From Halococcus agarilyticus (GTDB lineage: Archaea; Halobacteriota; Halobacteria; Halobacteriales; Halococcaceae), in assembly GCF_000334895.1 (NCBI RefSeq), contig NZ_BAFM01000001.1:248001-312000 (forward strand): DNA of 64,000 nucleotides. Reading direction: 5' to 3'. The translations under genes were made by a program, and so were the position numbers. Each line of letters begins with the position of its first letter. Position 1 is the stretch's first letter. This document shows positions 15,648 to 18,973 of the stretch, in pieces. The notes beneath the pieces are model-generated. The model made no database searches. It was not told the origin of the DNA and saw only the letters and a list, made by a program, of their open reading frames with translations.

Positions 15648-15842
15648 TTACTGTCGGGTGAGGTTGGTCGCTCGGGGTCCCTTGTCTGCCTGTTCGATGT
15701 CGAATTCGACTTCGGTGTCCTCTTCGAGATCCGGGCCGCCAACGTCTTCCATGTGGAAGAACACGTCCTCCTCGGAGTCCTCAGAGTCGATGAAACCGTA
15801 GCCGCCAGTGTCGTTGAAGAAGTCGACCGTACCTGTTGCCAT
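15648..15842 (-). CDS. cspA: Cold shock protein CspA
   Basis: Small OB-fold RNA/ssDNA chaperone (64 aa). Seen: RNP1-like GGYGFI (residues 13-18) and RNP2-like DVFFHMEDV, in a more acidic version than bacterial CspA, as usual in haloarchaea. The ATG at 15842 is chosen; a GTG at 15857 is in frame but lies inside the predicted transcription start zone. A TATA-like CTTATC 28-33 bases upstream indicates a leaderless mRNA. An oligo-T stretch follows the stop on the coding strand. Confidence 0.92.
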   Translation of the reverse strand: MATGTVDFFNDTGGYGFIDSEDSEEDVFFHMEDVGGPDLEEDTEVEFDIEQADKGPRATNLTRQ

Positions 15843-15869
15843 TGCGAGTAAACACAACCCCCCTGCGGG

Positions 15870-16015: not shown

Positions 16016-16121
16016 TGCTCGGTCGGGGATTTGAACCCCGGTCATCGGCTCTCTTCCAAAACGGGACGGACCCTATCTTGTCGAAAGGCCGAAATGATTG
16101 GCCGGACTACACCAACCGAGC
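16016..16121 (-). tRNA. tRNA-Glu (anticodon UUC) with a 31-nt intron at 37/38
   Basis: Folded by hand from the minus strand. Acceptor GCTCGGT pairs with ACCGAGC (7 bp, positions 16121-16115 and 16023-16017), discriminator A at 16016. T arm CGGGG-TTCAAAT-CCCCG. Anticodon stem TCGGC (16092-16088) pairs fully with GCCGA (16049-16045). The loop is C32 T33 T34 T35 C36 G37 A38, so the anticodon is UUC (Glu). The two anticodon-arm halves are separated by an intron at 16051-16081. Mature length 75 without CCA. A TATA-like TTATTAGG at 16145-16152 precedes it, and TTTT follows the 3' end. Confidence 0.9.
16051..16081 (-). other. tRNA intron with canonical bulge-helix-bulge
   Basis: 31-nt intron between G37 (16082) and A38 (16050). 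The splice motif is complete. The central 4-bp helix is CUUU (16087-16084) with GAAG (16056-16053): three Watson-Crick pairs and one U-G. Three-base bulges are CG^A (16083-16081) and AG^A (16052-16050), cut after the second base. An intron stem CAAG (16080-16077) pairs with UUUG (16060-16057). This matches the substrate of archaeal tRNA-splicing endonuclease. Confidence 0.88.
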
Positions 16122-16144
16122 GTGGCTGAATCTCGGTGTCGGCA

Positions 16145-16152
16145 CCTAATAA
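16145..16152 (-). promoter_or_regulatory. tRNA-Glu TATA element
   Basis: TTATTAGG on the minus strand, 24-31 bases before the 5' end of the tRNA; it lies in the 53-base gap after the HNH gene, so the tRNA can be expressed independently. Confidence 0.5.
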
Positions 16153-16174
16153 GCGCTGTCGTTTGCGCTTGCAC

Positions 16175-16894
16175 TCAGTCGGTATCGTTCGAGTCGGATG
16201 GATTCGCCAGACACTCCTCCAGAGAGAAGCCGCCGCTCGGTTGAACGTCGATCTGACCGTGTTCGGCCCTACTGTGACATCGCTTGCAGAGGAGAACGAG
16301 GTTTCGATCGTCGTGAGCGGCTTCGAGCGCGACTCCCTCCGTCTCTCGGAACAGTCGGACGGGAACGATGTGGTGAACATCGAGCGTTCGCTTCGCACCC
16401 TCGTGACCACAGTGCTGGCACACGCTGTCACGTCGCCATACTCGTTCACGTGCCTCCGCCCATCCGACCCCGTACCGTCTGCTGTATCCGCCACTCCAGT
16501 TCGGGTTCCGTTCTCCGGCCGTGGAACGACTCATCTTCCGACGTGTCTCCCTCGATCGAGAGATTCCCTGCAACGAACGCGAGATTTTCTGCCGGACGTC
16601 GGTCGGTAGTTCGCTACCCCGCTGCGCTTCGGCGATCCGTTCACGTGTTTCGTCGGAAAACGATCGTCCCTCCATCGTGCTGGAGATTTTCGCTTTCACC
16701 TCCTCGGTACGCTCCCGGCCGTACAGGGGATGATCCTCGCCGGCCATGTCACGGGTCGGAACCCCGAGCCGCTTCATTTGCTTGCGGACCGTGCTGGCGG
16801 AGACGCCGCACTCCTCGCCGATCTCCCGCTGTGTCAGCCCTTCGTCCCAGTACTTGATTTCGAGCCACCAGCCGTTTCGGTACCGTCGTGCCAT
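16175..16894 (-). CDS. HNH endonuclease with HTH and NUMOD3-type repeats (homing-type)
   Basis: Free-standing nuclease (239 aa). Domains in order: helix-turn-helix (LTQREIGEECGVSASTVRKQ, residues ~20-40); four short repeats of NUMOD3 type with HPLYG/SFSDETRERIAEAQRG/LPTDVRQKISRSLQG/SRSRETRRKMSRS patterns (~55-125), a DNA-binding array found in phage and intron homing enzymes; then a zinc-type HNH domain with CQHCG, DVHHIVPV and LLCKRCH (~155-215), catalytic His residues present. It ends 53 bases before the 5' end of the intron-bearing tRNA-Glu on the same strand. This context suggests a mobile homing element targeting that locus. It is less acidic and more basic than neighbouring proteins. 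Confidence 0.85.
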   Translation of the reverse strand: MARRYRNGWWLEIKYWDEGLTQREIGEECGVSASTVRKQMKRLGVPTRDMAGEDHPLYGRERTEEVKAKISSTMEGRSFSDETRERIAEAQRGSELPTDVRQKISRSLQGISRSRETRRKMSRSTAGERNPNWSGGYSRRYGVGWAEARERVWRRDSVCQHCGHEGAKRTLDVHHIVPVRLFRETEGVALEAAHDDRNLVLLCKRCHSRAEHGQIDVQPSGGFSLEECLANPSDSNDTD

Positions 16895-17005
16895 CGGCTA
16901 TCGTCTATTCGCCTCGGTTTACTACCTAAAGCCTCGGGTCGGGCCGCTTCACACGCTACCGATCGCAGTCGTCGCGCAATCGTCGAAATCGGCCGTCGAG
17001 TTCGC

Positions 17006-18973
17006 TTACTTCCCCTCGAACTCGGGCTCGGAGTCGCCCATAAAGGCCGTGACGCCCTCCATCAGGTCGTCGGTGTTGACGAGGTGGCCGAACGCCTGGG
17101 ATTCGATTTCGAGCCCCGCATCGGTGTCCTCCCAGCCCCGGAGCATGGCGCGTTTCGTGAACTTCTGGGCGATCGGCGGGCCGGCGGCGAGGGCGGCCGC
17201 CTGATCGAACGCCGTGGATTCGAGGTCCCCCTCGACCACCTCGTTCACGAACCCGAACTCCGCCATCTCGCTCGCCTCGTAGCGCTCGGCGGTCAGAATG
17301 ATCTCCTTCGCCCGCCCCATCCCCACGATCTGCTGGAGGCGCTGCGTACCGCCCCAGCCCGGCAGGAGCCCGAGGTCGAGTTCGGGCTGGCCGAACTCCG
17401 CGCGCTCGGTGGCGATCCGGAGGTCCGCACACGTCGCCAGCTCCATCCCCCCGCCGAGACAGTAGCCGTCGATGCCCGCCACGACCGGCATATCGCACTC
17501 TTGGAGCTTGCCGAACGTCTGCTGGCCCTTTCGTGAGAGTTCGATCGCGTCGAGCGGGGCGGCGCTCGCGGCCATCGACTGGACGTCCGCGCCCGCCGAG
17601 AACGCCTGGTCGCCAGCGCCGACGAGCAAGATCGCGCGCACGTCGTCGTCGGCTTCTAACTGATCGACCGCAGTCCCGAGCTCGTCGAGCAGATCGAGAT
17701 CGATGGTGTTCATCCGGTGGGTCCGATCGAGCGCGATCCTCCCCACCTGCTCACCGGGGTAGCTGACCTCGATGTTCTCGAAGGCGACGTCGTCGGTGTC
17801 GCCGTTGCGGTCGTAGAACCCGCCCGATTCGGCTGCCTCGCCGAGGTAGTCGGCGGGTTCGTACCGCGCCGCACCGGTCTCGTCGTGGAGCTCGTCGAGC
17901 GTGGCGTGGAGATCGTCGAGTCCGCGTTCGTCCGCGAGCTTCGCCGGCCCGTTCGGGAAGCCCGCGCCGAGCATCACCGCTTCGTCGATGTCGCTCGCCG
18001 GCGCGACGTCGCCGCCGATGAGCTTCGCGACCTCGTTCGCCATCACCGCAAGCAGTCGGGACTCGATCTCCTCGGTGCCGGCATCCGTCGGAATATCGGC
18101 ACCCTCGCCGTCATCGTAGTCGTAGAATCCCTTCCCTGTCTTCTTCCCGAGTTCCTCCGCCTCGACCTTCTCGGCGAGCAGCGGACTCGGCTCGTAGGCC
18201 TCACCGAGGGTCTCGTGCATGTATTCGAGGACGTGATAGCCCACGTCGATCCCGACCTGGTCCGCGAGTTCGAAGCTCCCCATCGGGAGGCCCATGTCGA
18301 ACTTGGTCGCGCTGTCGACTTCGGCGATCGTCGCCACATCGTCCTCGACCAGCCACGCGGCCTCGTTCATCAGCGGCACGAGGACTCGGTTGACGATGAA
18401 GCCCGGACTGTCCTTCCGGACGCGCACGGGCGTCTTGCCGAACCCCTCGGCGAGCGCCTCGACGGTGTCGAGGGTCTCGTCGGCGGTTTCGGCTCCAGCA
18501 ATCACCTCGACGAGCTGCATTCGCACGGGAGGATTGAAGAAGTGCATCCCGCAGAACCGCTCGGGCCGGTCGGTGACCTCCGCGAGGTCGGTAATGGAAA
18601 GCGAGGAGGTGTTCGTGACGAACAGCGCCTCATCGGGGGCGTACTCTTCGACCTCCCGGTAGACGTCCTGCTTGATGTCCATCTTCTCGGGCACGACCTC
18701 GATCACGAAGTCCACCTCGGAAACCGCGTCCTCGAGTTCGACCACCGGCGTCACGCGGTCGAGCGCGGCGTCGGCCTCCTCTTCGCTCAGTTGATCTCGC
18801 TCTTCGAGCTTGCCGAGGCTCCACTCGATGTCGTCGTAGCCGCTTTCAACCAGCTCCTCGTTGATGTCACGCAGCCTGACTTCGTACCCCGCGAGCGCCG
18901 CGACCTCGGCGATGCCGTGCCCCATGTTCCCTGCCCCCAGCACCGCGATGGTTTCGATGTCCTCGGCGTTCAT
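17006..18973 (-). CDS. 3-hydroxyacyl-CoA dehydrogenase / enoyl-CoA hydratase fusion
   Basis: Bifunctional beta-oxidation enzyme (655 aa). The N-terminal half is an NAD-dependent 3-hydroxyacyl-CoA dehydrogenase: Rossmann motif VLGAGNMGHGIAEVA at residue 10, MHFFNPPVRMQLVEV with the catalytic His near 140, PGFIVNRVL, and a second C-terminal dehydrogenase domain (~300-380). The C-terminal third (~400-655) is a crotonase domain with AFSAGADVQSMAAS and GYCLGGGMELATCADL forming the oxyanion hole, and QPELDLGLLPGWGGT with the catalytic Glu. Domain order is the archaeal one, reversed relative to bacterial FadB. An acyl-CoA dehydrogenase gene is divergent from it. Confidence 0.93.
   Translation of the reverse strand: MNAEDIETIAVLGAGNMGHGIAEVAALAGYEVRLRDINEELVESGYDDIEWSLGKLEERDQLSEEEADAALDRVTPVVELEDAVSEVDFVIEVVPEKMDIKQDVYREVEEYAPDEALFVTNTSSLSITDLAEVTDRPERFCGMHFFNPPVRMQLVEVIAGAETADETLDTVEALAEGFGKTPVRVRKDSPGFIVNRVLVPLMNEAAWLVEDDVATIAEVDSATKFDMGLPMGSFELADQVGIDVGYHVLEYMHETLGEAYEPSPLLAEKVEAEELGKKTGKGFYDYDDGEGADIPTDAGTEEIESRLLAVMANEVAKLIGGDVAPASDIDEAVMLGAGFPNGPAKLADERGLDDLHATLDELHDETGAARYEPADYLGEAAESGGFYDRNGDTDDVAFENIEVSYPGEQVGRIALDRTHRMNTIDLDLLDELGTAVDQLEADDDVRAILLVGAGDQAFSAGADVQSMAASAAPLDAIELSRKGQQTFGKLQECDMPVVAGIDGYCLGGGMELATCADLRIATERAEFGQPELDLGLLPGWGGTQRLQQIVGMGRAKEIILTAERYEASEMAEFGFVNEVVEGDLESTAFDQAAALAAGPPIAQKFTKRAMLRGWEDTDAGLEIESQAFGHLVNTDDLMEGVTAFMGDSEPEFEGK

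Follow-up and report, generated by a model that had tools for sequence, protein, structure and literature searches.

The closest described mechanisms to the arrangement presented here are collaborative homing, as known for F-CphI at psbA of a cyanophage (PMC6083498), and trans homing by MobE (PMC2988022). F-CphI is a free-standing endonuclease encoded beside an intron-containing gene, as is the haloarchaeal nuclease; in both cases the intron splits the presumed target, which would shield the resident allele. F-CphI is an Endo VII-type phage enzyme that accompanies a group I intron and whose cleavage was demonstrated, whereas the haloarchaeal locus combines an archaeal chromosome, a tRNA gene, a protein-spliced tRNA-type intron, a NUMOD3-HNH enzyme with putative cleavage activity and, in place of the intron at some loci, stem substitutions. 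Among tRNA-cutting homing enzymes, SegB of T-even phages (PMC2988022, PMC13096335) comes closest; it is likewise free-standing, is encoded beside tRNA genes and cuts tRNA-containing DNA. This GIY-YIG phage enzyme occurs with tRNAs of varied isotypes and has no intron link, whereas the haloarchaeal nucleases are HNH enzymes with one isotype per clade at single-copy cellular tRNA genes.

The reason for archaeal tRNA introns is a long-standing question. In H. volcanii, introns occur in tRNA-Trp, -Met and -Gln only (PMC2584109). Randau and Soll proposed that a tRNA intron protects the tRNA gene from mobile elements (cited in PMC3293823 and PMC4390854); as cited there, the proposal concerns integrases, whereas the agent here would be a nuclease of the homing type whose association with the genotype can be measured. 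According to PMC3293823, direct evidence that introns shield tRNA genes from mobile DNA was lacking. This work demonstrates the linkage of HNH nuclease genes to tRNA genes, their insertion at a conserved site with occupied, empty and remnant states, the association of occupancy with changes of the site, and purifying selection on the nuclease.

The window, i.e. the whole stretch that was analysed, comprises 64,000 nucleotides of Halococcus agarilyticus (contig NZ_BAFM01000001.1, positions 248,001 to 312,000). The original prediction placed a nuclease with HTH, NUMOD3-like repeats and an intact HNH domain directly upstream of an intron-containing tRNA, 53 bp away on the same strand. ORF, Pfam and ARAGORN results agree with it; the tRNA is tRNA-Glu(UUC) with a 31-nt intron, and the interval 16016-16894 covers both tRNA and nuclease. 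The features of the locus are:

15648..15857, minus strand: cold-shock-like small protein gene, which anchors the downstream side in most of the genus' genomes
16016..16050, minus strand: exon 2 of tRNA-Glu(UUC) (ARAGORN with introns allowed)
16051..16081, minus strand: intron of 31 nt at canonical position 37/38 (ARAGORN with introns allowed)
16082..16121, minus strand: exon 1 of tRNA-Glu(UUC), last base G37 (ARAGORN with introns allowed)
16045..16106, minus strand: putative nuclease target region, tRNA positions ~16-43, here split by the intron (per-position association scan)
16122..16174, minus strand: spacer of 53 bp between nuclease and tRNA-Glu(UUC), with box-A-like GCGCTTATTAG
16175..16894, minus strand: free-standing, intact HTH-NUMOD3-HNH endonuclease gene, 239 aa (ORF, Pfam domains and conserved residues)
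16895..17005, minus strand: upstream part of the insertion, from nuclease start to dehydrogenase stop (occupied/empty comparison), which likely carries the nuclease promoter
17006..18973, minus strand: 3-hydroxyacyl-CoA dehydrogenase/enoyl-CoA hydratase-like gene, which anchors the site upstream and is conserved throughout the order

The tRNA-Glu(UUC) gene (16016-16121, minus strand) was found by ARAGORN with introns allowed and, because of its intron, was missed by default ARAGORN and Rfam gathering scans. A single copy was found in the genome; as the sole other tRNA-Glu match is Glu(CUC), the intron-bearing gene should be functional. Pairing between GGAAG near the 3' end of the intron and CUUUC in the anticodon loop is possible and would give a bulge-helix-bulge type of structure. 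In 12 relatives the intron 3' end is a GAAG segment for which pairing with the anticodon loop is possible, and the inner helix shows compensatory changes. With its position 37/38 and this conserved predicted exon-intron pairing, the intron fits an archaeal bulge-helix-bulge intron. A nuclease encoded inside a group I (self-splicing) intron was considered and rejected: the intron is 31 nt long without an ORF, the nuclease lies outside it and there is no Rfam match.

The nuclease matches NUMOD3 (three times, 2.8e-14), HNH (8.5e-10) and an N-terminal HTH_24 (4e-6) in Pfam; both an intact HNH nuclease domain and DNA-binding modules (NUMOD3, HTH) are present. Its HNH and zinc-ligand residues are all intact and do not vary among eight homologues. 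Among intact relatives, dN/dS is ~0.04-0.23, although several pairs approach saturation of dS, and these copies are under purifying selection. The predicted structure has low confidence (pLDDT 60, pTM 0.37), and a PDB search returned weak matches only. The HNH protein gp111 of halovirus HCTV-5 is homologous to the window nuclease over most of its length (33% identity), but its gene lies among virion and other viral genes without a tRNA gene site. Searches of viruses, phages and plasmids yielded only distant HNH/NUMOD3 relatives and not the source of the Glu nuclease clade.

Among 99 relatives, the eleven closest homologues are all located upstream of tRNA-Glu(UUC) on the same strand, roughly 57-158 bp from the matched stretch. 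The pairing also occurs in nine named records and twenty further genomes, and the adjacency is not due to chance. More distant homologues adjoin tRNA-Gln(UUG) (upstream, same strand, 17 loci), tRNA-His(GUG) (downstream), tRNA-Val(UAC) or tRNA-Glu(CUC). A tRNA neighbour is present at 51/67 examined nuclease loci versus a chance expectation of ~4%, a descriptive figure given that homologous loci are non-independent. On the HNH-domain tree, the label of the partner tRNA changes five times, the lowest number possible with six labels (41.5 on average after shuffling). Support for the Glu(UUC) clade is 100/97, and HNH proteins not near tRNAs branch outside. This archaeal order contains clades of HNH nucleases that each keep to a particular tRNA gene (Glu-UUC, Gln-UUG, His-GUG, Val-UAC or Glu-CUC). 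A literature search did not turn up any account of tRNA-linked HNH genes in haloarchaea, though this does not prove that none exists.

Nucleases at tRNA-His(GUG) have an N-terminal C2H2-like zinc motif and lie just 3' of the tRNA, on the same strand in some and on the opposite strand in others (loci L012-L014, L016, L017, L019-L024, L026, L027, L032-L036, L044 and L045). At L018, the ORF of a Val-type nuclease overlaps the convergent tRNA-Val(UAC) gene by ~40 bp, and at L015 the ends of both abut. L264 (G314:C3) encodes a partial Glu-clade-like nuclease (47% identity); tRNA-Glu(UUC) was not found in the 2.5 kb examined. Three ARAGORN assignments next to Gln-type nucleases, 'Lys(ttt)' at L047 and L064 and 'Glu' at L028, were rejected in favor of intron-bearing tRNA-Gln.

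Comparison with relatives indicates that the nuclease is an insertion of ~0.8 kb between the conserved dehydrogenase gene and tRNA-Glu(UUC). The dehydrogenase-like gene is present upstream of this tRNA, on the same strand, in many families of the order, and the nuclease occupies a fixed intergenic site with empty counterparts in relatives. The gap between dehydrogenase and tRNA measures 762-1135 bp in the 25 occupied loci summarised versus 51-254 bp in 40 empty loci; three occupied loci have gaps outside the main range (427, 1812 and 2253 bp), and a few tRNA-Glu(UUC) loci without a detected nuclease have longer gaps. By eye, the spacer of the window is common to the other occupied loci of the genus and differs from that of empty loci (CGCTTAAA type). 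Since the tRNA-proximal spacers of occupied and empty loci differ, the unit that was inserted or converted seems to come with a tRNA promoter of its own.

The state of the tRNA is associated with the presence of the nuclease. In most nuclease-free genomes, the anticodon arm is intronless with G at position 42. At the first eleven nuclease loci the arm is altered in all cases, either by an intron at 37/38 (four) or by another base at 42 (seven). The G42 rule was formed post hoc on these eleven loci and then applied to the remaining genomes of a sample of 392 from the order (species-level representatives). Over the whole sample, tRNA-Glu is altered at 27/31 nuclease loci (13 introns and 14 intronless alleles with a base other than G at 42) versus 67/361 nuclease-free genomes, those with neither allele pattern being counted as unaltered without reading each tRNA (Fisher p=1e-14). 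Outside the rule-forming set, 16/20 occupied and 55/273 nuclease-free genomes are altered (p=7e-8), and the count by genus is 13/14 versus 11/81 (p=9e-9). In the ten mixed genera, 24/27 nuclease loci are altered versus a mean of 14.5 under within-genus permutation, with genera as strata serving as a coarse ancestry control (p=5e-6).

Among intronless alleles, a position scan locates the signal at 42, 27, 43, 16 and 28 and finds none in the acceptor and T arm; 27-43 and 28-42 are base pairs, so these positions are not independent. The intron site 37/38 falls inside the nuclease-associated span 16-43, and the resident allele of the window is altered at the putative target. A functionless linked haplotype, in which recombination at a single locus moves the nuclease along with the tRNA variants and the association reflects hitchhiking, would suit two genes less than 200 bp apart and a spacer that by eye is common to the occupied loci of the window's genus. 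It predicts a signal along the whole tRNA, however, and is quite unlikely in view of the silent acceptor and T-arm positions and the recurrence of different altered states (introns of 30-48 nt, T42, C42 and A42) across 13 genera.

The pattern probably reflects homing by free-standing nucleases: the intronless tRNA gene would be cut, and an intron or a stem change would protect the resident allele. The nuclease gene occupies the intergenic space just upstream of the tRNA, and its product would cut an intronless tRNA gene around positions 16-43. The resident tRNA would escape cutting by an intron at 37/38, as in the window, or by substitutions in the anticodon stem, chiefly at base 42. Recombinational repair of a cut, unprotected allele would then introduce a copy of both the nuclease and the protected tRNA allele, including its intron.

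The collaborative homing of the original prediction is a special case of such protected-allele homing. It agrees with a free-standing homing-type nuclease at tRNA-Glu, with the repeat at tRNA-Gln described below and with the co-occurrence of nuclease and intron (13/31 occupied versus 48/361 unoccupied, p=2e-4), i.e. the two were found to be correlated across relatives. The intron is not obligatory, and as the proposed partner of the nuclease it would be one of two ways of protection: roughly every second nuclease locus lacks an intron and has base 42 (plus 27/28/43) changed instead, and 48 genomes have the intron without the nuclease. Of these, 32 belong to genus g8 of family f5 (32/392 genomes), in which a 34-36-nt tRNA-Glu(UUC) intron is present throughout and no Glu-clade nuclease was detected. 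The g8 intron is either old, having outlived its nuclease, or of independent origin. Four occupied loci have an intronless G42 allele, namely G126, G136 and G324 with an intact nuclease and G135 with a broken one. The former three (L242, L241 and L253) have C at D-loop position 16 in common, an observation made post hoc; C16 could be another protective change or reflect a shifted specificity.

The spliced arm of the intron allele equals the unprotected arm, so that protection by the intron can act only on DNA or on the primary transcript, which favors a DNA target. An RNA-level anticodon nuclease that cleaves the tRNA, with the allele changes protecting the transcript, would suit the partners Glu(UUC) and Gln(UUG), both of which anticodon nucleases attack in other systems. 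Such an enzyme is nevertheless extremely improbable, as splicing restores the unprotected sequence and the intron cannot protect the mature tRNA, and the domains are those of DNA homing enzymes.

The tRNA-Gln clade is an independent repeat of the tRNA-Glu pattern. Its loci form two groups, twelve with an intron-bearing and five with an intronless tRNA-Gln. For the first Gln-type nuclease group, 15/15 occupied loci (13 nuclease genes and two remnants, G039 and G003) have a tRNA-Gln intron versus 13/66 others (p=5e-9, 99 genomes); within genera the association is less strong (p=0.014 when only nuclease genes are counted, 0.001 including remnants). G003 is the sole typed member of the window's genus with a tRNA-Gln intron, and it is adjoined by the remnant of a Gln-type nuclease. 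If, following the idea of Randau and Soll, introns and stem changes guarded the tRNA gene against integrase-mediated insertion with the nuclease being incidental, altered tRNA-Glu would be expected without a nuclease, as in 67 genomes, and intron gain with an integrated element has been reported (PMC3293823). Neither the strong within-genus dependence on nuclease presence nor the tRNA-Gln repeat is predicted by such a guard, which makes it very unlikely.

Nuclease remnants are present beside altered tRNA-Glu genes in G013, G306 and G140, and in G118 a decayed nuclease adjoins an unaltered allele. Approximately 9/31 Glu nuclease copies contain stops, frameshifts or truncations, and remnants and broken copies together fit a cycle of gain, decay and loss. 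These copies also bear on an exclusion or defence nuclease, kept by host selection, that cuts the unprotected tRNA-Glu gene or fragments thereof on incoming viruses, plasmids or integrative elements, with the altered host allele as self-immunity. Defence would produce the same genotype pattern and purifying selection, and integrases adjoining tRNA-Glu are reported for haloarchaea (PMC3119063). We consider it unlikely, since homing genes typically show what is seen here, namely a location exactly at the own putative target, many decayed copies and remnants, a NUMOD3-HNH architecture and free-standing HNH relatives in haloviruses.

The nuclease distribution is patchy and the nuclease tree mostly groups by genus, and in 167/175 between-genus pairs nuclease identity is below that of the neighbour gene. 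The comparison of nuclease with neighbour-gene identity and tree gave no support for cross-family transfer of the nuclease. Given the genus-wise tree and the lower identity, long residence with repeated loss accounts for the distribution equally well as recent transfer. The original prediction that homing explains how the intron spread is not borne out by a nuclease tree that follows genera.

The data suggest that some archaeal tRNA introns shield against, or ride along with, probably selfish nuclease genes, and that in cellular genomes a homing nuclease can be specialised for an individual essential tRNA gene. The sequence allows the agent, its probable target region and the alternative states of protection to be named, and the organisms are culturable. 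Conceivably, though slightly more doubtful than probable, haloarchaeal homing nucleases, of which every type targets a single essential tRNA gene, are the force by which tRNA introns and anticodon-stem variants are gained, maintained and spread, with the intron as immunity device against the nuclease or as its passenger.

Duplicated tRNA-Glu(UUC) genes were observed in three genomes. G226 (L267), G255 (L268) and also G389 contain two full-length non-G42 copies that flank a segment and are 5.3-5.6 kb apart. In G226, the segment encodes asparagine-synthase-like and prolyl-oligopeptidase-like proteins; it is possibly an element integrated at tRNA-Glu.
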